Source of the DNA: Euzebyales bacterium
GTDB lineage: Bacteria; Actinomycetota; Nitriliruptoria; Euzebyales; JAHELV01
Direction of reading: 5' to 3'
NCBI GenBank assembly: GCA_036374135.1
Contig: DASUUK010000105.1
Coordinates: 1 to 36,498 of the forward strand
DNA length: 36,498 nt
The notes under the pieces are model-generated. The model saw only the letters and a program-made list of their open reading frames with translations, ran no database searches and was not told the DNA's origin. A program made the position numbers and the translations under genes. Below, one piece after another: positions 3,757-28,289 of this stretch (position 1 is its first letter; each line of letters begins with the position of its first letter).

Positions 3757-3940
3757 AGACGCGCGTGGGTCGGTTGCGGCTCGACGGGGGTGCACGTGCC
3801 GCGATGGGCGCCCGTCGTTGACGACTGCGGAGCGACCGTGCAGGGTGGCGGGGGTGGCACCGACGCGGCCGCGGACGCTCGATGCGGGCCGAATGACGCA
3901 CCGACCGCGGGCGCTGGCGAGAGGGTCGAGGAGCGCTGGC

Positions 3941-5293
3941 ATGGCCGTTGACACATCGAGAGCAGAGCCGTCCGCGCGGCGACCCCTCCGTCAGCCTGAC
4001 TACCTGTCGGGGTTCGGCAACGAGCACGCGTCGGAGGCTGAGCCGGGGGCGCTGCCGCACGGACAGAACAACCCGCAGCAGCCGCCACTTGGCCTGTACA
4101 CCGAGCAGTTGTCGGGCACCGCCTTCACGGTCGGCAACGCGCGCAACCGCAGGACGTGGCTGTACAGGATCCGGCCGTCGGTACGTCACGCGTGGCGGTT
4201 CACCGAGACCGACAACCACATGATCCGGACGGGTCCCAACCGTGAGGCCGACCCGCCGATCGGACAGCTGCGGTGGGACCCACCGCCGTTCCCGGACCAC
4301 CCGACGACGTTCCTGACGGGTCTGCACACGGTCGCCACCAACGGCGACACCCACACCCAGGTCGGCATGGCCGCCCACGTGTACATGGCCTCGGAGTCGA
4401 TGACCGACACCTACGTCTACGACGCCGACGGCGAGCTCCTGGTGGTGCCGCAGGACGGCCGGGTGCGCTTCGTGACCGAGTGCGGCGTGCTCGTCGTCGC
4501 GCCCGGCGAGATCGCCGTGATGCCGCGCGGCATGGTGTTCCGCGTCGAACTCGTCGACGACATGGCCCGCGGCTACGTCTGCGAGAACTACGGCACCTAC
4601 TTCGAACTGCCCGAGCGCGGTCCGATCGGCGCCAACGGACTGGCGAACCCCCGCGACTTCCTGTACCCGACCGCCGCGTACGAGGACACCGACGCGTCCG
4701 GGGAGCTGTACGTCAAGTTCGACGGTCGCCTGTTCGTGGTCGAGACCGACCACTCACCGCTGGACGTCGTGGGCTGGCACGGCAACCACCTGCCGTACAA
4801 GTACGACCTGGCGACCTTCAACGTGATCGGGTCGATCAGCTTCGACCATCCTGACCCCTCGATCTTCACGGTGCTGACCGCGCCATCGCCCGACCCGGGC
4901 ATCGCCAACGTCGACTTCGTGGTGTTCACAGACCGGTGGCTGGTGGGGGAGCACACGTTCCGGCCGCCCTACTACCACAAGAACATCATGTCGGAGTTCA
5001 TGGGCATCGTGCACGGCGTGTACGACGCCAAGGAGGAGGGGTTCTCGCCGGGGGGGATGAGCCTGCACAACATGTACTTTCCGCACGGCCCGGACCACGG
5101 TGCCTGGCTGAAGGCGACCTCGGGTGACCAGCAGCCGCAGAAGCTGGCCGACACGCTGTCGTTCATGTTCGAGACGCGTTATCCGTTGATCCCGACCGCC
5201 TACGCCGGGTCGATCCCCGCCCTGCAGGACGACTATCCCACGGTGTGGCACCAAATGGAGCGTCACTTCACCGGACCGGATGCGCGAGGGTGA
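3941..5293 (+). CDS. hmgA: Homogentisate 1,2-dioxygenase
   Basis: The 450-residue product opens the aromatic ring of homogentisate with O2 to give maleylacetoacetate, the central step of tyrosine/phenylalanine breakdown. The N-terminal family signature YLSGFGNEHASEAEPGALP is followed by GLYTEQLSGTAFT. The non-haem iron ligands fit His346 (PYYHKN), Glu352 (MSEF) and His382 (PHGPD); the spacings of 6 and 30 are the same as in the human enzyme (335/341/371). The length is normal for the family. ATG 3941 is preferred because GAGGAG lies seven bases upstream (3928-3933). The frame is open further upstream to 3686, but that part has no family similarity and overlaps the divergent promoter. It is the first gene of a five-gene operon. 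Confidence 0.97.
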   Translation: MAVDTSRAEPSARRPLRQPDYLSGFGNEHASEAEPGALPHGQNNPQQPPLGLYTEQLSGTAFTVGNARNRRTWLYRIRPSVRHAWRFTETDNHMIRTGPNREADPPIGQLRWDPPPFPDHPTTFLTGLHTVATNGDTHTQVGMAAHVYMASESMTDTYVYDADGELLVVPQDGRVRFVTECGVLVVAPGEIAVMPRGMVFRVELVDDMARGYVCENYGTYFELPERGPIGANGLANPRDFLYPTAAYEDTDASGELYVKFDGRLFVVETDHSPLDVVGWHGNHLPYKYDLATFNVIGSISFDHPDPSIFTVLTAPSPDPGIANVDFVVFTDRWLVGEHTFRPPYYHKNIMSEFMGIVHGVYDAKEEGFSPGGMSLHNMYFPHGPDHGAWLKATSGDQQPQKLADTLSFMFETRYPLIPTAYAGSIPALQDDYPTVWHQMERHFTGPDARG

Positions 5294-5300
5294 GCCGACC

Positions 5301-6272
5301 GTGACCACGACAGGACCGAAGCCGTTCGCCTCGTCCGCCGACACCGACGCGACCGACGAGGCGCTGGAGATCCTCGCCGACGGTGTCTACGCACTGACGG
5401 CGGGAGGAGACCCGACGGTCGGCGCCATCGAGGGCGCCGACTTCCTCGTGTGCTTCGAGGCGCGCGCCACGCCGCACATGGCCGACAAGTGGCTGCGGCA
5501 GCTGCGCGAGCACACCGACAAGCCGGTCCGCTACCTGGTGCTGTCGCACTACCACGCGGTGCGCACCCTGGGCGCGGCCGCCTTCGACGCCGACGCGATC
5601 ATCGCGCACCGCAACACCCGCGCGCTGATCGCCGAACGGGGCATGCAGGACTGGGAGTCCGAAGCCGGGCGGATGCCCCGGCTGTTCGAGGGAGCGGACA
5701 CGATCCCGGGGCTGACGTGGCCCGGCCTCGTGTTCTCCGACGAGCTCGTGATCGACCTCGGTGAGGGCAGAGGGGATCTCGAGCTCGCCTACTGCGGGCA
5801 CGGCCACACCGAGGGCGACATCATCGCGTGGCTGCCCGACCACCGGATCCTGTTCGCCGGCGACCTCGTGGAGTCCAGGGCCGCTCTGTACACCGGTGAC
5901 GCCTACCACCGCGAGTGGTCGACGGGCACGCTCGAGCGCGTCGCCGGCTACGGCGCGACCACTCTGGTCGGCGGTCGCGGGGAGGTGGCGCACGGCGCCG
6001 GCGCCGTCGACGCCGCGATCGATCAGACCCGGCAGTTCCTCGACGTCCTGCAACGTGAGGTCGGCACCGTGCACGCCCGGGGCGGCACGTTGAAGGAGGC
6101 GTTCGACGCCGCGCACGCTGCGCTCCACGACGCGTACGGGCACTGGCCCATCTTCGAGCACTGCATGCCCTTCGACGTCGCGCGCCTGTGGGACGAGCTC
6201 GATGGCATCGAGCGTCCGCGCATCTGGACGGCTGAGCGCGACCGCGAGGTCTGGACGCAGCTGCAGGGCTGA
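5301..6272 (+). CDS. MBL-fold metallo-hydrolase of the homogentisate operon
   Basis: This 323-residue protein has the metallo-beta-lactamase fold: LVLSHYHAVRTLG at 79-91, GHGHTEGD at 167-173 and FAGDLVESR at 185-193. The first metal motif is altered. The usual HxHxDH reads HYHAVR (His83, His85, Val87, Arg88), so ligands of the second metal site are missing while His83, His85, His169 and Asp188 remain. That suggests a mono-metal enzyme or a changed chemistry. Substrate unknown; a role in hydrolysing or isomerising a ring-cleavage intermediate is inferred only from the operon. GTG 5301 is preferred because GAGGGTGAG precedes it. An in-frame ATG at 5280 would overlap hmgA by 14 bases and has no good ribosome site. 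The next gene begins three bases after the stop. Confidence 0.85.
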   Translation: MTTTGPKPFASSADTDATDEALEILADGVYALTAGGDPTVGAIEGADFLVCFEARATPHMADKWLRQLREHTDKPVRYLVLSHYHAVRTLGAAAFDADAIIAHRNTRALIAERGMQDWESEAGRMPRLFEGADTIPGLTWPGLVFSDELVIDLGEGRGDLELAYCGHGHTEGDIIAWLPDHRILFAGDLVESRAALYTGDAYHREWSTGTLERVAGYGATTLVGGRGEVAHGAGAVDAAIDQTRQFLDVLQREVGTVHARGGTLKEAFDAAHAALHDAYGHWPIFEHCMPFDVARLWDELDGIERPRIWTAERDREVWTQLQG

Positions 6273-6275
6273 CCG

Positions 6276-7883
6276 ATGACCACGCACCAGCGGGACGGAG
6301 CCGACGATCGCGTCGTGATCGCCGGTGCCGGGCCGGTCGGCATGATCGCTGCGCTGCTCCTGGCGCGGTGGGGCGTGCCCAGCGTGCTGCTGGAGGTCAA
6401 GCCGTCGCGTGAGGCGATCGGGTCGAAGGCGATCTGCTTCCAACGCGACGTGCTCGACATCCTCGACCGGGTCGGCGTCGCCCGTTCTGCCGTCGACGAG
6501 GGCGTCACCTGGTACCACGGGCTCACGTTCTACCGCGACCACCAGTTGTTCGAGATCACGTTCCCACAGGTCGGGCAGAGCGCGTTCCCGCCGTTCATCA
6601 ACCTCAGCCAGAGCACGCTGGAGGACCTGCTGTTCGCGCAGGTCGACGCGGAGCCGCTGATCGAGGTGCGGTTCGATACCCGGGTCATCGGTTTGTCGCA
6701 GGACGACGCCGGCGTGTCGGTCGACGTCGCCCGTGGCGCGGGATCGGCGACGGTCGGCGGGGCATACCTGCTGGGGTGCGACGGCGCCCACAGTGCCGTC
6801 CGCAAGCTCCTCGGGCTGCCCTTCGAGGGCCACTCGTTCACCGAGCAGTTCCTGATCGCCGACATCCGCGCCGACCTGCCGTTCCCGACCGAACGGCGCT
6901 TCTACTTCGACCCCGAGTGGAACCCTGGCCGACAGGTGCTCGTCCATCCGCAGCCGCACTCGCTGTGGCGCATCGACTGGCAGGTCCCCGCCGACTTCGA
7001 CCTCGACCACGCTCAGTCATCCGGTGAGCTGGACCGGCGCATCCGTAGGATCGCCGGTGACGCCGACTACGACATCGACTGGGTGTCGGTGTACCGCTTC
7101 CACCAACGCATCGTGCCGACCTACCGCGTGGGTCGCGTGCTGCTCGCAGGTGACGCCGCCCACCTGATGTCACCGTTCGGCGCCCGCGGGCTCAACTCCG
7201 GCGCCCAGGACGCCGACAACGCGGCATGGAAGCTCGCATTCGCGCTGCGCGGCTGGGCCGGTGACGACCTGCTCGACAGCTACGACGTCGAACGCCACGC
7301 GGCCGGTGTCGAGAACATCCGCGTGACGGGTGAGACGATGCGCTTCCTGGCACCGCAGGACGAGCGGCAGTGGGCCCGTCGCCGCGCGCTGCTGGAGCAG
7401 GCGATCGACGACCCCGACGTGCGTGCGCAGGTGAACTCGGGCAGGCTGGCCGAGCCGTTCTGGTACCTCGACTCGCCGCTGACGACCCCCGCGGGGCCAA
7501 CCGACGACTTTCCGCGCGAGGCGGCCGTCGCGCGCCCGGTCGTGCCGGGTGTGCTGTGCCCGGACGCCCCCTGCCGTCCGGCGGCGCAGCCCGGCGTGAC
7601 CAGACTGCGGGAGCTGTTCGGCGACGCCTTCGTGCTGCTGCTCAACGCTGACGATGCGCGGCCCGACGTGTCCGGTGTCGCATGCCCGGTGACCAGCCAT
7701 CGGCTGGGCGACCTGGCCGGCGACCACGGCAAGGTGCTCGCCGACGTGCTCGACCTCGCAGCGGGCGAGGCGTTGGTCGTGCGCCCCGACGGTCACATCG
7801 CCGCGGTCGTCGAGGCATGCGACGGGGCCGCGATCGTCGCGGCCGTCGAGCGTGCGTGCGGGCACCGGGTGGCGGCCTCGTGA
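6276..7883 (+). CDS. FAD-dependent aromatic-ring monooxygenase (MhpA/PheA-type)
   Basis: A 535-residue class A flavoprotein monooxygenase. It has the GxGxxG FAD motif at 17-22 (GAGPVG), the DG motif at 169-170 within CDGAHSAVRKLLG, and the GD motif at 292-293 within GDAAHLMSPFGARGLNSG. The C-terminal 130 residues resemble the thioredoxin-like domain of phenol hydroxylase and 3-(3-hydroxyphenyl)propionate hydroxylase (ending with ALVVRPDGHIAAV). Such enzymes use NAD(P)H and O2 to hydroxylate phenolic rings. Its place between hmgA and fahA suggests that it feeds the pathway, for example by hydroxylating a hydroxyphenylacetate to homogentisate, but the substrate cannot be read from sequence. ATG 6276 follows the MBL stop by three bases, and its stop overlaps the next start (TGATG). 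Confidence 0.88.
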   Translation: MTTHQRDGADDRVVIAGAGPVGMIAALLLARWGVPSVLLEVKPSREAIGSKAICFQRDVLDILDRVGVARSAVDEGVTWYHGLTFYRDHQLFEITFPQVGQSAFPPFINLSQSTLEDLLFAQVDAEPLIEVRFDTRVIGLSQDDAGVSVDVARGAGSATVGGAYLLGCDGAHSAVRKLLGLPFEGHSFTEQFLIADIRADLPFPTERRFYFDPEWNPGRQVLVHPQPHSLWRIDWQVPADFDLDHAQSSGELDRRIRRIAGDADYDIDWVSVYRFHQRIVPTYRVGRVLLAGDAAHLMSPFGARGLNSGAQDADNAAWKLAFALRGWAGDDLLDSYDVERHAAGVENIRVTGETMRFLAPQDERQWARRRALLEQAIDDPDVRAQVNSGRLAEPFWYLDSPLTTPAGPTDDFPREAAVARPVVPGVLCPDAPCRPAAQPGVTRLRELFGDAFVLLLNADDARPDVSGVACPVTSHRLGDLAGDHGKVLADVLDLAAGEALVVRPDGHIAAVVEACDGAAIVAAVERACGHRVAAS

Positions 7884-8713
7884 TGTCGTCAGTACCCGCC
7901 CTGTATGCCAGTTTGGTGGACGACGCGGGGCTGTTCCCGCCGTCGCGGCTGCCGATGCCCGCCGCGCTGGACCGCCACCGCGATGACGTGGCAGCGGCGC
8001 ATCCGGTGCTGACGCACCGGTTCCTGTGTCCCGCGTCGCAGCTCGACGTACTGCGGGCCCACCTCGCGAAGGACGAGGAGATCCGCGTCGGCATCATCGG
8101 CGACACCGGCATCGACGGGCTGCGACCAGCCCTCGACGAGGTGGCGTTCGACGACCGCGTGCGCGTGGAGACCGTCGAGGCCGCGCTGCCGCCCGGCGCC
8201 GGTCCGGCCGAGGTGCAGGCGGCGGTCGCCCGACTCGCCGCCGTGGACGCGCAGGTGTTCGTCGAGCTGCCCCGCGCCCCGGGATGGCGCGACGCACTGC
8301 AGACCGTTGCGACGGCCGGGCTCGGGGCCAAGGTGCGGTGCGGAGGGGTGCGCGCCGACCTGTTCCCCACGCAGGAGGAGTTGGCGGCGTTCGTCGTCGC
8401 GGCCGTCGACGCCGGTCTGGCCTGCAAGGCGACCGCCGGCCTGCACCACGCCGTGCGCCATCGTGACCCGCTGACCGGCTTCGACCACCACGGGTTCCTC
8501 AACCTGTTGCTGGCGGTCAGCCGTGCCGTGCAGGGGGCGCCGGACGCCGACGTCGTCCGCGTGCTCGCGATCGACGACGCCGGCTCGCTGGTCGGTGCAG
8601 CGCGCGCCGTCACCGAACCCGTCGCGCGGGCCACGCGCGACGTCCTGGTCGCGTACGGCTCGTGCAGCACCGCCGACCCGGTCGCCGACCTCACCGCACT
8701 CGATCTGATCTGA
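7883..8713 (+). CDS. Uncharacterised 276-aa protein of the homogentisate operon
   Basis: I cannot assign a described family. The protein is soluble, with no signal or membrane segment. Alternating strand/helix stretches (VFVELP at 125-130, GAKVRCGG at 148-155, FVVAAVDAGLACKATAGLHHA at 170-190) suggest a TIM-barrel-like fold. Striking candidate active-site segments are DDAGLFPP at 13-20, Lys150 in KVRCGG, Lys182 in CKATAGLHH, and FDHHGFLN at 200-207. ATG 7883 overlaps the stop of the monooxygenase gene, implying translational coupling. The gene lies directly before fumarylacetoacetase, where many bacteria keep maleylacetoacetate isomerase, and no glutathione-transferase-type isomerase occurs in the window. 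An isomerase role is a hypothesis from position only. Confidence 0.8.
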   Translation: MSSVPALYASLVDDAGLFPPSRLPMPAALDRHRDDVAAAHPVLTHRFLCPASQLDVLRAHLAKDEEIRVGIIGDTGIDGLRPALDEVAFDDRVRVETVEAALPPGAGPAEVQAAVARLAAVDAQVFVELPRAPGWRDALQTVATAGLGAKVRCGGVRADLFPTQEELAAFVVAAVDAGLACKATAGLHHAVRHRDPLTGFDHHGFLNLLLAVSRAVQGAPDADVVRVLAIDDAGSLVGAARAVTEPVARATRDVLVAYGSCSTADPVADLTALDLI

Positions 8714-8723
8714 AGGGACCGTC

Positions 8724-9914
8724 ATGGCGACGTGGGTGCCGCTGCCCGACGACTCCGGGTTCGGCGTCGACAACCTGCCGTACGGCGTCTTCGCCCCGAC
8801 GGACGGACCGGCCCGCGCGGGCGTGCGCATCGGTGACCACGTGCTCGACCTCGCCGCTGTGCTCGACGACCCGACGTTCGCCGCTGCGACCCTCAACCCG
8901 TTCATGGCGCAGGGACCGCGACGCTGGGGCGAGGTGCGGGGACGTGTCACCGATCTGCTGACCGACGAGCGCCACCGGCGACGGGTCGAGCCACTGCTGA
9001 CGCCCATCCACGACGTGGCCATGCTGCTGCCGTTCACGGTCGCCGACTACGTCGATTACTACTCCTCGCTGCACCACGCGAGCAACGTCGGGCGCATGTT
9101 CCGACCCGACGATGAGCCCCTCAAGCCGAACTGGCGTCACCTGCCGGTCGCGTACCACGGACGGTCGGGCACGGTGGTCGCGTCCGGCACGCCGATCGTG
9201 CGGCCATGCGGCCAGTCACGGCCGCCGAGCGCTGACCGGCCGTCGTTCGGGCCCAGTACGCGGCTCGACATCGAGGCCGAGGTCGGCTTCGTCGTTGGTG
9301 CGCCCAGCCGACTGGGGACCCGCGTCGGCGTCGACGCATTCGCCGAGCACGTGTTCGGCGTGGTCCTGGTCAACGACTGGAGCGCGCGGGACATCCAGGC
9401 GTGGGAGTACGTGCCGCTGGGTCCGTACCTGGGCAAGTCGTTCGCCACCAGCGTGTCGCGGTGGGTCGTGCCGCTGGCGGCGCTCGACGCCGCACGCGTC
9501 CGGCCCCCGTCGCAGGATCCGCCCGTGCTGGACTACCTGTGTGGCGCCGAGGACCGGGGTCTCGATCTGACGCTGGAGGTCCGGCTGAACGGCGACGTGG
9601 TGTCACGACCGCCGTTCGCGCAGATGTACTGGACGCCGGCACAGCAACTGGCGCACATGACCGTCAACGGTGCCAGCCTGAGGACGGGCGACCTGTACGC
9701 ATCCGGCACCGTGTCCGGGCCAGAGCGCGATCAGCGCGGCTCGCTGCTCGAGCTCACGTGGAACGGCACCGAGCCCCTGACGCTCGCTGACGGCTCCACG
9801 CGCACCTTCCTCGAGGACGGCGACACCGTCGCGATCAGCGCCACCGCGCCCGGTTCCGGCGGCGGACGGATCGACCTGGCCGCTGTGACCGGCACGATCG
9901 CGCCGGCCGCCTGA
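8724..9914 (+). CDS. fahA: Fumarylacetoacetase
   Basis: The 396-residue enzyme hydrolyses fumarylacetoacetate to fumarate and acetoacetate, the last step of homogentisate breakdown. An N-terminal SH3-like domain occupies about 1-100, followed by the FAH catalytic domain. The metal and catalytic residues fit Asp111 (YVDYYSS), His118 (LHHASNVG), Glu184 and Glu186 (DIEAEVGF), Asp218 (LVNDWSARDIQ) and Lys238 (LGKSF), in the order known for mammalian FAH. The length is slightly short of the usual 410-430. ATG 8724 has AAGGGA five bases upstream and follows the previous stop by ten bases, so it closes the operon. A short GC hairpin follows at once. Confidence 0.97.
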   Translation: MATWVPLPDDSGFGVDNLPYGVFAPTDGPARAGVRIGDHVLDLAAVLDDPTFAAATLNPFMAQGPRRWGEVRGRVTDLLTDERHRRRVEPLLTPIHDVAMLLPFTVADYVDYYSSLHHASNVGRMFRPDDEPLKPNWRHLPVAYHGRSGTVVASGTPIVRPCGQSRPPSADRPSFGPSTRLDIEAEVGFVVGAPSRLGTRVGVDAFAEHVFGVVLVNDWSARDIQAWEYVPLGPYLGKSFATSVSRWVVPLAALDAARVRPPSQDPPVLDYLCGAEDRGLDLTLEVRLNGDVVSRPPFAQMYWTPAQQLAHMTVNGASLRTGDLYASGTVSGPERDQRGSLLELTWNGTEPLTLADGSTRTFLEDGDTVAISATAPGSGGGRIDLAAVTGTIAPAA

Positions 9915-12431: not shown

Positions 12432-14060
12432 TCAGGTGCGACGGATCCGGACGACGGCGTCGGTGCCGGCGTGGGGGCGGTCGGCGTCGTCCGTGGTCTC
12501 GCGGGGGATGATGGCTGCGCGCTCGACCTGCCAGTGCGTAGTGTCAACGTCGAGGTCGGCGAGGACCTCGTCGGGGGTCGGGAACCGGGTGGCAGGTCCG
12601 CGATGCGCGTGCGCGGGCGGTGTACCGACGTGTCCGACGATCAGTAGGACACCGCCGGGTGCGACGGCGGCCGCCGCCGTCCCCAGGATACTGCTGCGCG
12701 GCAGGTCGACGGGTGAGTGCAGGTAGTGGATCGACACGAGGTCGAACGCCCCGGTCGGCTGCCAGTCCGCGAGGTCGCGGTGGAGCCAGGTGATGCGTTC
12801 GGCGACGTCGGCCCTGACGGCCCGGTCGCGCGCGCGGTCGAGGACGGCACGCGAGATGTCGACCGCGGTGACCCTCCAGCCGCGCTGTGCGAGCCAGATG
12901 GCATCTCCGCCCTCCCCGCAGCCGAGGTCGAGCGCGGTGCCGGGCGCCACGTCGGCCATCTCGTGGACCAGCGTTGCGTTCGCTCCGCCCGACCAGTGCG
13001 GGTGCGGCTGGGCGTGGAACCTGTCCCAGTAGCTGTCCGCGGTGTCACCGTCGACGACGGCGTGGCGCGCCTGCAGGCGGTGCCCGTCCAGCGCCCGGTC
13101 GGTGTCCTCGGCAACCAGGTCGGCGTTGATTCCGGCGGCGGCCCTCACGCCGGCGGCAGCCGAGCCGATCAGCGTGGCACGGGGGTCGGCGACGTTGCCG
13201 GCAACCCACACGCCACGAACGTCCGTCGCGCCCGTGTCGTCCGCCGCCACGAACGTCCCGATGACATGGTCAGCGATCTGCATGTCGGCGGTCGGCAGTC
13301 CCAACTCCACGAGCAGGTCCGCGCGGGCGGCGAACGTCGGTGCGACGGCGAGCACGTCGCATGCGACCGTCGGTCCGTCGTCCAGCCGCACGCCGGTCAG
13401 CCGGTCGTCGTGCACCTCGAGCTCGGCGACGTGGCCGTCGACGATGCGCACGCCGCGCGCGTTCAGCCGCTCGCGCTCGGCATCGTCGGGCCTCGGCGCG
13501 GTGTGGGTGAACAGCACCACATCGACGCTCAGCTGACGCCACAACAAGGCGGATGCGTCCGCCGACGGCGTTGTGGCCAGGACGCCGATCGTCTGGTCGC
13601 GGACCTCCCAGCCGTGGCAGTAGGGGCACGACAGCACGTCGCGACCCCACCGATCTGCCAGACCGCGGACCGGGGGCAGATCATCGACCAGACCCGTCGC
13701 GACCAGCAGCCGGCGCGCCGACACCAGTGACCCGTCGTCGAGCGTCAAACGGAACCGGTCCCCGCCGGGCCGTGCCGCGGACGTCACGGCGCCGATCACG
13801 ATCCGACCGCCGAATCGGCGGACCTCGTCGCGGCCGATCGCCAGCAGCTGCGACGGGTCGGCGCCGTCGCGTGTCAGGAAGTTGTGCAGGTGGGTGGCTG
13901 TCGCGTTGCGCGGCTGCTCGGCGTCGATCACCAGCACGCTGCGTCGGGATCGCGCGAGGGTCACGGCGCCGCTCAGTCCGGCCGTGCCGCCTCCGATGAC
14001 CGCCACGTCGACGGTGCACATCTCGTCGCAGACCGCTTCGGTCGCAGGCACGTCGGTCAT
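12432..14060 (-). CDS. Fusion of a thioredoxin-reductase-like FAD oxidoreductase with a SAM methyltransferase
   Basis: The 542-residue protein has two domains. Residues 17-315 are a thioredoxin-reductase-like flavoprotein with FAD motif GGGTAG at 23-28, the redox pair CPYC at 145-148 within SCPYCHGWEV, and a C-terminal FAD segment VWVAGNVADPRATLIGSAA at about 284-302. Residues about 340-542 are a class I methyltransferase with motif I DLGCGEGGDA at 378-387 and acidic VDIS at 400-403. The same domain order is known in actinobacterial proteins; the joint function is unestablished, and thiol/toxin or volatile-compound handling is a guess. ATG 14060 has a near-perfect ribosome site (GAGGAGGTGATC). 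It diverges from an XRE-cupin regulator that probably controls it. Confidence 0.9.
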   Translation of the reverse strand: MTDVPATEAVCDEMCTVDVAVIGGGTAGLSGAVTLARSRRSVLVIDAEQPRNATATHLHNFLTRDGADPSQLLAIGRDEVRRFGGRIVIGAVTSAARPGGDRFRLTLDDGSLVSARRLLVATGLVDDLPPVRGLADRWGRDVLSCPYCHGWEVRDQTIGVLATTPSADASALLWRQLSVDVVLFTHTAPRPDDAERERLNARGVRIVDGHVAELEVHDDRLTGVRLDDGPTVACDVLAVAPTFAARADLLVELGLPTADMQIADHVIGTFVAADDTGATDVRGVWVAGNVADPRATLIGSAAAGVRAAAGINADLVAEDTDRALDGHRLQARHAVVDGDTADSYWDRFHAQPHPHWSGGANATLVHEMADVAPGTALDLGCGEGGDAIWLAQRGWRVTAVDISRAVLDRARDRAVRADVAERITWLHRDLADWQPTGAFDLVSIHYLHSPVDLPRSSILGTAAAAVAPGGVLLIVGHVGTPPAHAHRGPATRFPTPDEVLADLDVDTTHWQVERAAIIPRETTDDADRPHAGTDAVVRIRRT

Positions 14061-14116
14061 GGTTCGATCACCTCCTCGGCAACTCTGCGCGCTGACGGTC
14101 GGCGGTGCAACTATGC

Positions 14117-14131
14117 TTGCCAGAATGGCAA
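14117..14131. promoter_or_regulatory. Candidate operator palindrome TTGCCA-N3-TGGCAA
   Basis: A perfect 6-bp inverted repeat with a 3-base spacer lies in the divergent promoter region, 57 bases before the fusion gene start and 117 before the regulator start. A helix-turn-helix dimer would fit this spacing; the XRE-cupin protein encoded next door is the obvious candidate. Confidence 0.45.
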
Positions 14132-14140
14132 TTTCGTGAG

Positions 14141-14222
14141 GCCTGGTTCCACGAGACACGCGGTGGACCGGCGCCGCCGGACGAGAAACGTCATGGAGCC
14201 TGGTTCGACGAGCACGCGGTGG
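14141..14222. repeat. Imperfect direct repeat upstream of the XRE-cupin gene
   Basis: GCCTGGTTCCACGAGACACGCGGTGG (14141-14166) recurs as GCCTGGTTCGACGAGCACGCGGTGG (14198-14222), with one substitution and one single-base indel, 57 bases apart. It ends about 25 bases before the regulator start, so it may be a second regulatory element or an old local duplication. Confidence 0.5.
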
Positions 14223-14247
14223 GCTTCGCCCGAAGGAGACTGGTTGG

Positions 14248-14841
14248 ATGGACGACGACGTCACAACGACGCTGCGGACCATCGGACCCCGACTGCGCTC
14301 ATTGCGTCAACAGCAGGACCGCACGCTCGAACAGGTCGCCGAGGCGACCGGCATCTCGGTCAGCACGCTGTCGCGCCTGGAGTCGGGACAGCGCCGGCCG
14401 CTGCTCGAGCACCTCCTGCCGCTCGCGCGCACGTACCGGGTGCCGCTCGATGAGCTCGTGGACACGCCGACCGCGCCTGACCCGCGGGTCCGGACGCGGC
14501 CGCTGACCCGTCACGGCCGGACGTTCTACCCACTGACACGCAGCCACGGCACGCCGCAGGCATACAAGATCGTCATCCCGGCGCCGAGCGCGGACCGCGC
14601 TGCCGCCGCGCCGGAGCTGCAGGTCCATACCGGCTATGAGTGGCTGTACGTGCTGTCGGGCCGGCTGCGCCTGCAACTCGGCGAGCATGATCTGCTGCTC
14701 GACGCCGGCGAGGCCGCCGAGTTCGACACCCGAGTGCCGCACGCGTTGAGCAGCGCAGGACCCGGGCCGGTCGAGCTGCTCACGCTGTTCGGTCCGGACG
14801 GGGAGCGCATGCACGTCCGTGCCCGCCCATCGGGCAGATGA
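14248..14841 (+). CDS. XRE-family transcriptional regulator with cupin sensor domain
   Basis: A 197-residue regulator. Residues about 12-67 form a helix-turn-helix (LRSLRQQQDRTLEQVAEATGISVSTLSRLESGQRRP, with the recognition helix around SVSTLSRLE). Residues about 105-190 form a cupin barrel (GYEWLYVLSGRLRLQLGEHDLLLDAGEAAEFDTRVPHAL), probably the ligand sensor. ATG 14248 has GAAGGAG nine bases upstream. It diverges from the oxidoreductase-methyltransferase fusion. The palindrome and direct repeat between them suggest that it controls that gene and perhaps itself. The small downstream genes start within 30 bases but have their own -10-like element. Confidence 0.92.
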   Translation: MDDDVTTTLRTIGPRLRSLRQQQDRTLEQVAEATGISVSTLSRLESGQRRPLLEHLLPLARTYRVPLDELVDTPTAPDPRVRTRPLTRHGRTFYPLTRSHGTPQAYKIVIPAPSADRAAAAPELQVHTGYEWLYVLSGRLRLQLGEHDLLLDAGEAAEFDTRVPHALSSAGPGPVELLTLFGPDGERMHVRARPSGR

Positions 14842-26369: not shown

Positions 26370-28289
26370 TCACATGCTCCAGGCCGCGGTCAGGGCGACC
26401 AGCACGAGCGTGCCGATCGCGATCGCCGCGTAGTAGGTGTGGGCCTGTCCGGTCTGGACGCGGCGGCTGTCACGCCCCGCGACGCCGATCAGGCGGGCCA
26501 GGCCGGTGACCGTGCCGTCGACACCCAGCTCGGCGACGCGGTCGAGCACCCGCGCGGCCCAGGCGGTGAACGTGGCGATGCCGCGCACGCCGGCGTCGAC
26601 CACGTGGTCGTCGGAGCGCCGCAGTTGGCCGCTCAGGGTGCGTCCGACGGCGGCGATCCCGCGCACCGCGCCGTCGATGACCGCGTCGTCGAAGCGCGCC
26701 ACGGCTCCGGCGGCCGCCAACGTGGGGTCCACGACGGCGACGCGGGTCAGCGCGGGCAGGCCGATCCAGGTCGCGACGCGGTCGGCGCGTGGCGTGGTCG
26801 CGGCGTGGGCGAGCCGGTCGTGGCGACGCAGGACCACCGCGGCGTAGCTCGCCACGGCGATGGCCAGCAGCGACGCGGCCAGCTCCCATGGAGCCCGCGT
26901 GGGCAGGTCCCCGCCGACGACCGCAGTCAGCGCGCGCCCGCCGGCGGGCAGCCACAGCAGCCCGAGCGCCAGGCCGAGCGCTCCCAGCAGCCCGATCGCG
27001 ATGTGCTCGGTCATGGTCGGCCGATCGCGCAGCGCAACGTGTCGGCGGTCCCGCGGCGTCCCGTACGCCAGCAGCTGGAACCTGGCCGCGTAGTAGGCGC
27101 TGAGCCCGCCGGCGACGATGACGGCCACGGCGAGCCACGTGCCGTGGTGCGCGGCGGCGGCGACCACGCCGTCCTTGGTCCACGCCATGCCCAGCGGCGG
27201 CACCGCGGCGAGCGCGATGGTGCCCGACGCGGTCAGCCACGTCATCGCCGGTAGGCTGCGTCGAAGGCCCATGCGGGCCAGTTCGCGCGTCCCGGTCGCG
27301 CCGATCGCGACACCGGCCGACAGGAACAGCAGGGCCTTGCACAACGCGTGTGCGATCAGGTGGGCGACCGCGATCGTCGGGTAGCCGGCGCCGACGGCGA
27401 CGAGCATCAGCCCGTACTGGGCCGACGTCGAGGCTGCCAACAGCTTCTTCGCGTCGTCCTGCACGGTGGCGACGACACCGCCTGCGAGCGCGGTCAGCAG
27501 GCCAACGGCCATCGTCGTTGGAGCGAACCAGCCGACGGTGTCGAGCACCGGATGCAGGCGGGCCAACAGGTACGCGCCGGCGGCGACCATGGTCGCCGAG
27601 TGCAGCAGCGCCGACGCCGACGACGGTCCGGCCATCGCCGAGAACAGCCACGGCGCGAACGGGACCTGCGCCGACTTCGCCACCGCCGCCACCAGCACAC
27701 CGGCGACGACGGCGTGGGCGGCCGGCCCCTCCATCCCGGGCAGGTCCGCGAACGCCAACCCACCGCTGGCGGCGAACGCGGCACCCGCGGCGACGAACAG
27801 CCCGAGGTCACCGGCGCGCGTGGCGTTGAACGCGTGTGCCGCCATCGCCGGCGCGTCACCGCGCCACTCGTGGGCGATCAACGCCCACGAGACGGCGCCG
27901 ACCAGTTCCCAGCCGATCAGCAGCGACAGCAGATCCTCTGCGAGCAGCACGAGCTCCATTGCGCCGACGAAGGCGACCAGCAGGCCGAGCAACCGCGGCA
28001 GGCCAACGGCGTCCTCGTGGGCTACGGCCCACGCGACGACGGCGAGCGCCACCAGCGGGACCAACGCGATCAGAGGGCGGCTGACGCCGCTGACACCGAG
28101 CCGCAGCACCAAGCCCCCGCCCCACCCGAGCGACGTCGACGGCTGCCACAACGCCGTCCACGCGGTGGTCACGAGTGTGACCGTCAGTGCGGCGCAGGCC
28201 ACGATGCCGAGCGCGCGCCGCGATCCGCCACGCCACACGCCGAGCGCGAGGCCCGTCAGCGCGGGCAGCCAGATGATCGAGAGCAGCAT
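26370..28289 (-). CDS. nuoL: Complex I-like membrane subunit L
   Basis: A 639-residue distal antiporter-like subunit. All classical channel residues are present: Glu128 (IGWELVG), Lys205 (AKSAQVPFAPWL), His230 (ALLHSATM), Lys318 (HALCKALLFL) and Lys372 (AWTKDG). The C-terminal lateral-helix region (about 490-605) is rich in amphipathic segments and holds a threefold repeat of the type DDAVIDGAVRGIA (534-546), DDHVVDAGVRGIA (560-572) and GVDGTVTGLARL (589-600). A last membrane helix follows (QAHTYYAAIAIGTLVLVAL). Start ATG 28289, one base after the nuoK stop. It looks able to transport protons, in contrast to NuoN and NuoH, where key residues have changed. Confidence 0.94.
   Translation of the reverse strand: MLLSIIWLPALTGLALGVWRGGSRRALGIVACAALTVTLVTTAWTALWQPSTSLGWGGGLVLRLGVSGVSRPLIALVPLVALAVVAWAVAHEDAVGLPRLLGLLVAFVGAMELVLLAEDLLSLLIGWELVGAVSWALIAHEWRGDAPAMAAHAFNATRAGDLGLFVAAGAAFAASGGLAFADLPGMEGPAAHAVVAGVLVAAVAKSAQVPFAPWLFSAMAGPSSASALLHSATMVAAGAYLLARLHPVLDTVGWFAPTTMAVGLLTALAGGVVATVQDDAKKLLAASTSAQYGLMLVAVGAGYPTIAVAHLIAHALCKALLFLSAGVAIGATGTRELARMGLRRSLPAMTWLTASGTIALAAVPPLGMAWTKDGVVAAAAHHGTWLAVAVIVAGGLSAYYAARFQLLAYGTPRDRRHVALRDRPTMTEHIAIGLLGALGLALGLLWLPAGGRALTAVVGGDLPTRAPWELAASLLAIAVASYAAVVLRRHDRLAHAATTPRADRVATWIGLPALTRVAVVDPTLAAAGAVARFDDAVIDGAVRGIAAVGRTLSGQLRRSDDHVVDAGVRGIATFTAWAARVLDRVAELGVDGTVTGLARLIGVAGRDSRRVQTGQAHTYYAAIAIGTLVLVALTAAWSM

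Follow-up and report, generated by a model that had tools for sequence, protein, structure and literature searches.

A protein family without a name as the probable maleylacetoacetate isomerase of bacterial homogentisate operons

The 36,498-nucleotide stretch of DNA from a Euzebyales bacterium that was analysed here (the window) contains a homogentisate operon in which HmgA, whose product is maleylacetoacetate, and FahA are both encoded (Table 1), and it raises the question of which protein carries out the isomerisation that lies between these two enzymes. The initial annotation suggested that the open reading frame directly upstream of fahA could encode a non-homologous isomerase suited to bacteria lacking glutathione. 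A maiA homologue elsewhere in the genome, which would have spoken against this idea, did not emerge: a search of the window genome (3.98 Mb, 96% complete) with the model of the known enzyme MaiA (TIGR01262) gave no match. The product of this frame (hereafter X, a member of family X) is probably the maleylacetoacetate isomerase of the operon and unrelated to the glutathione-dependent MaiA, as suggested by its position, its predicted fold and its conserved residues. HmgA makes maleylacetoacetate, FahA cleaves fumarylacetoacetate, and the step between them is the only one that stands without an enzyme in complete operons.

The frame begins with an ATG that shares one base with the TGA stop codon of the preceding monooxygenase gene (positions 7881-7883; the overlap TGATG spans 7881-7885), and its own stop codon (8711-8713) is followed 10 bases downstream by the ATG of fahA at 8724. 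The coordinates that the initial annotation gave for this gene were confirmed, and so was its place next to fahA. The annotation also described it as translationally coupled; the one-base overlap and the 10-base gap make such coupling plausible. X has no match in Pfam, NCBIfam, PHROGs or the PDB sequences. In the window genome, no match to glutathione synthetase (GshB) was found, and an MshA-like protein reaches 407 bits against a cut-off of 462.5; judging from the sequence, mycothiol is possible in this organism. The metallo-beta-lactamase-fold protein encoded beside them may contribute to the formation of homogentisate. The pair of metallo-hydrolase and FAD-monooxygenase genes (window 5280-7883) also occurs beside hmgA-fahA without X on a plasmid of Dinoroseobacter shibae (Alphaproteobacteria; locus L172).

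Table 1. Genes of the homogentisate operon and conserved codons of X in the window
Feature	Position	Strand	Basis
hmgA, homogentisate 1,2-dioxygenase	3890..5293	+	TIGR01015, 628 bits, cut-off 511; exact start uncertain, match from 3998
Metallo-beta-lactamase-fold protein of operon	5280..6272	+	Family search
FAD aromatic monooxygenase, likely homogentisate-forming	6276..7883	+	NF006002
Candidate maleylacetoacetate isomerase (family X), 276 aa	7883..8713	+	ORF, family searches, model
X Asp13, strand 1, 80/80	7919..7921	+	Model, conservation
X Glu128, end of strand 5, 80/80	8264..8266	+	Aligned to invariant DERA-profile Glu
X Lys150, strand 6, 79/80	8330..8332	+	Position of DERA Schiff-base lysine
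X Lys182, strand 7, 80/80	8426..8428	+	Position of DERA second active-site lysine
X His188, after strand 7, 79/80	8444..8446	+	Conservation
X Cys261, just after strand 8, 79/80, candidate internal thiol	8663..8665	+	Model, conservation
fahA, fumarylacetoacetase, next pathway step	8724..9914	+	TIGR01266, 439 bits, cut-off 375

A profile scan of GTDB genomes identified at least 544 stretches that encode relatives of X, and a tblastn search of plasmids with X returned 24 records; remote members were found in Priestia (Bacillota, 27% identity) and Kovacikia (Cyanobacteriota). Since these relatives are conserved, occur in three phyla and keep the same gene position, X is far more than a chance open reading frame. 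Neither the libraries nor the open-licence papers that were searched provided a name for it, and X is thus a conserved, widespread bacterial protein family without a name. Among 62 relatives only scattered weak matches were obtained, the best of them to CbiZ (12 members, best E 0.003), and an identity with CbiZ was rejected; X itself has no match to PF11716 (MDMPI).

In 73 of the 80 best loci (out of at least 544), fahA lies less than 300 bp downstream of X on the same strand, and in most of the 80 hmgA adjoins X in a co-directional or divergent arrangement. The seven exceptions show a contig end, a rearranged order (X-hmgA-fahA), a larger gap or an X gene located elsewhere, and all seven genomes in which X is not directly before fahA contain a fahA over the cut-off. 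X stands directly before fahA in all six annotated plasmid records that were inspected. The gene order is hppD-hmgA-X-fahA on the Tsukamurella plasmid, hmgA-X-fahA on the Pseudonocardia and Rhodococcus plasmids and hppD-X-fahA-hisC-hmgA on the Priestia plasmid, X is followed by fahA on the Kovacikia plasmid with hmgA ~2 kb upstream on the opposite strand, and two Streptomyces plasmids carry X-fahA, one of which (Streptomyces Alt3) reads hmgA-X-fahA-CoA transferase A-B. The Tsukamurella and Streptomyces Alt3 operons leave isomerisation as the sole step without a named enzyme; with regard to EC 5.2.1.2 irrespective of fold, the X gene is found between hmgA and fahA in genomes without MaiA. X is accompanied by HmgA of a long type (as in the window) or of a short type, and in a related genus it is located between guaA and fahA; thus, the constant partner of X is fahA. 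In a metagenome-assembled genome of Sphaerisporangium, X and FahA share one uninterrupted frame of 674 aa (L028:6995-9016). It may reflect a genuine fusion, or else the loss of a stop codon or a faulty assembly, the latter two being conceivable because a GTG with GAGGAA just upstream could start FahA in frame. A long open frame in another genome (G111) suggested a second fusion, which was rejected, as X and FahA lie in different frames there.

The distribution of the family was surveyed in 296 Actinomycetota genomes with a completeness of at least 90%. X was detected in 18 of them; as scoring was limited to the 8 best candidates of each genome, an odd remote member could have been missed. In 34 genomes fahA exceeds its cut-off, and another 6 reach 263-359 bits (40 genomes with a strong fahA in total). 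A strong fahA is present in 17 of the 18 carriers of X, and in the eighteenth X is truncated by the end of its contig, which also carries hmgA. The association of X with fahA yields a Fisher p of 8e-16 (2.7e-15 at the strict cut-off), a value which is not a true probability because the genomes are related. No MaiA over the cut-off was found in the 296 genomes or in 50 X-bearing genomes and records. The check that the initial annotation had proposed, co-occurrence with hmgA/fahA in genomes lacking maiA, therefore gave a positive result for the best loci, for the seven exceptional genomes and for the carriers in the Actinomycetota sample. Plasmids of Pseudomonadota carry an annotated maiA beside hmgA and fahA.

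Twenty-three of the 40 Actinomycetota genomes with a strong fahA contain neither X nor MaiA. One genome (G008, locus L127) has fahA and hmgA without X, and its relatives in the same genus have X between guaA and fahA. Together, these cases indicate that X is not indispensable. In a further genome (G254, locus L124), hmgA is directly followed by fahA with neither X nor MaiA, and in one genus with large genomes, probably Streptomyces (L113-L118), fahA occurs without X or MaiA and is mostly solitary. A search beside fahA in the X-less genomes recognised no alternative isomerase. Another isomerase, a free thiol or tolerance by FahA must serve in the genomes that possess fahA without X and MaiA.

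An AlphaFold2 model of X built from 62 relatives (pLDDT 97, pTM 0.93) predicts with confidence a (beta/alpha)8 barrel in which four helices separate strand 7 from strand 8; DSSP assigns the strands to residues 12-14, 43-50, 67-72, 93-101, 124-128, 148-152, 181-184 and 255-260. In a structure comparison with VIA-align 2, the top 28 matches of the model are all deoxyribose-phosphate aldolase (DERA) or DERA-based designs (Z 13.7-15.4, rmsd about 3.2-4.2); the best reach Z 15.4 over 211-214 residues with an rmsd of 3.5-3.6, which places the predicted fold among DERA-type barrels, and the next families follow from Z 13.1. Foldseek alone gave weak matches to the model (best E 0.0011, none below 0.001). 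The fold does not prove a function.

Conservation was counted over 80 relatives, including those of Priestia and Kovacikia. D13, E128, R152, K182, T184 and G186 are invariant in all 80, and K150, H188 and C261 are retained in 79. The segments CKATAGLHH (residues 181-189) and FDHHGFLN (residues 200-207), which had been pointed out as conserved-looking, belong to the best-conserved regions of the family. In the model, several of the residues D13, E128, K182, K150, H188 and C261 are located at C-terminal strand ends, on the active-site side in such barrels, and C261 is predicted at the catalytic end. In E. coli DERA, the Schiff-base lysine is K167 on strand 6 and the second lysine is K201 on strand 7, and by strand position K150 and K182 of X correspond to this DeoC pair. 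A comparison of the X profile with a profile of 23 actinobacterial DERA sequences by hhalign was not significant (E 0.24, a score reached by 62 of 400 shuffles). Within this alignment, D13, E128, K150 and K182 are each paired with an invariant DERA column of the same residue (D, E, K and K, respectively), whereas 400 column-shuffled profiles, a generous null, gave at most two such residue matches; this placement of four residues is the only feature of the alignment that exceeds the shuffles. The predicted fold and the invariant residues fit an enzyme with a ketone-activating lysine. One family member, encoded between hmgA and fahA in genome G111 (L130, 4443-5834), jointly lacks K150, G154, H188 and C261 in a frame that is open, so that this copy is either decaying or changed in function. 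It offers a natural test of which residues of X matter.

These features allow a mechanism to be put forward, rather tentatively, in which X may dispense with a thiol cofactor and isomerise its substrate through a lysine iminium together with a nucleophile of its own, either a cysteine or a lysine. Lys150 (or Lys182) would form an iminium with the C4 keto group beside the double bond of maleylacetoacetate and make C2 electrophilic, and Cys261 (or a lysine or water) would then undergo a reversible Michael addition that turns C2-C3 into a single bond. Rotation about C2-C3 and departure of the nucleophile would convert the cis double bond to trans, and the resulting fumarylacetoacetate would be hydrolysed by the adjacent FahA. 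The existence of engineered DERA variants with iminium Michael additions, as described in PDB titles, indicates that such a barrel can host this chemistry. A cis-trans isomerisation mechanism of this kind is known so far only in pieces, namely as the Michael addition of glutathione in MaiA and as the iminium Michael chemistry of engineered DERA.

Isomerisation of maleylacetoacetate is itself an established reaction, and X probably represents a non-homologous replacement for the known enzyme. In MaiA/HmgC (a zeta-class glutathione transferase; TIGR01262, EC 5.2.1.2), glutathione adds to the double bond, rotation takes place and glutathione is eliminated. MaiA has the reaction proposed for X and its place in the pathway in common with X; however, MaiA combines a thioredoxin fold with a helical domain and needs glutathione, whereas X is predicted to be a (beta/alpha)8 barrel and is proposed to act without a thiol cofactor, and thus X would lack the GST fold and the glutathione dependence that characterise MaiA. 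For the corresponding step in gentisate degradation, actinobacteria have an enzyme that is not a GST, the mycothiol-dependent maleylpyruvate isomerase (MDMPI; DinB fold, PF11716), a four-helix bundle with a bound metal, to which the predicted barrel of X is unrelated; X also occurs in groups that are not known to produce mycothiol. Maleate cis-trans isomerase, of the Asp/Glu racemase superfamily, employs an enzyme cysteine for isomerisation without a thiol cofactor and provides a mechanistic parallel for Cys261, although its fold differs and it has no sequence match to X. DERA (TIGR00126, PF01791; engineered Michael-addition variants, PDB 7p76) shares with X the predicted barrel (Z about 15) and colinear Asp, Glu, Lys and Lys residues on strands 1, 5, 6 and 7. 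In contrast to DERA, X has four additional helices inserted between strands 7 and 8 of the model and carries Cys261 behind strand 8, and it is linked to fahA rather than to nucleoside catabolism.

It counts against the assignment that maleylacetoacetate might be taken care of by FahA alone or by free mycothiol, and several other roles for X have to be weighed against isomerisation. It is unlikely, though worth considering, that X acts next to FahA without isomerising, by cleaving, hydrating or otherwise processing maleylacetoacetate or a by-product, for example by an aldol-type or hydrolytic route or by repairing diketo acids in the cis or saturated form, or that it is a partner of FahA. Such a role would agree with the aldolase-type fold, with fahA rather than hmgA being the most constant neighbour, with the existence of fahA without X and, to a slight degree, with the in-frame X-FahA reading frame in one metagenome-assembled genome. 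However, FahA is full length and over its cut-off, which means that cleavage is already provided, and it is isomerisation alone that is left without an enzyme in the complete operons. That X is simply a deoxyribose-phosphate or sugar aldolase which stands in the operon by chance is very improbable in spite of DERA being the best fold match, because X matches no Pfam or NCBIfam model, the DeoC models (TIGR00126, PF01791) included, the KTSTGF motif is absent from it, the window genome has its own deoC over the cut-off, and the linkage between X and fahA is too strict.

The remaining alternative moves the isomerisation away from X: maleylacetoacetate would be isomerised by a free thiol or by a mycothiol-dependent (DinB/MDMPI) enzyme encoded at another place in the genome, and X would have a different task in the pathway, for example with acetoacetate. 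We regard a non-isomerising X of this kind as improbable, somewhat more so than an X that processes maleylacetoacetate beside FahA. It would accommodate the many fahA-bearing Actinomycetota without X and MaiA and the MshA-like protein of the window genome; an MDMPI-domain gene is also located near X on one Streptomyces plasmid, and a gene of the mycothiol-dependent isomerase family is listed among the tyrosine genes of Streptomyces albidoflavus (PMC11012174). Against this, X together with fahA is also present in Priestia and Kovacikia, groups not known to produce mycothiol (general knowledge; PMC4360819), and a role in acetoacetate metabolism is disfavoured by the acetoacetate genes that some operons carry after fahA. 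Thus, the assignment of X as the maleylacetoacetate isomerase remains the probable one.

In Gram-positive bacteria, the lack of an identified maleylacetoacetate isomerase is a recognised gap: a study of Bacillus thuringiensis, in which hppD, fahA and hmgA are present, stated that it could not assign any genes to the isomerisation of maleylacetoacetate (PMC6193087). The genes hppD-fahA-hmgA of that strain have consecutive locus tags (PMC6193087); X therefore leaves this particular gap unfilled, and it would fill the corresponding one in Priestia. If the assignment is correct, X constitutes a testable family that closes the gap in many genomes and explains the breakdown of tyrosine, phenylalanine and hydroxyphenylacetates in bacteria without glutathione. 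It would also show that the reaction for which human GSTZ1 uses glutathione can proceed by a new route without a cofactor, and annotation pipelines could label hundreds of genes that are now called "hypothetical protein."

Elsewhere in the window, ARAGORN called a tRNA-Asp on the minus strand at 27646-27741, inside a gene that resembles one for a NuoL-like NADH dehydrogenase (26370-28289, minus strand), and this call is probably false. By eye, a single frame on the minus strand at 12432-14282 seems to join a flavoprotein of the thioredoxin-reductase type to a following domain that resembles SAM methyltransferases.
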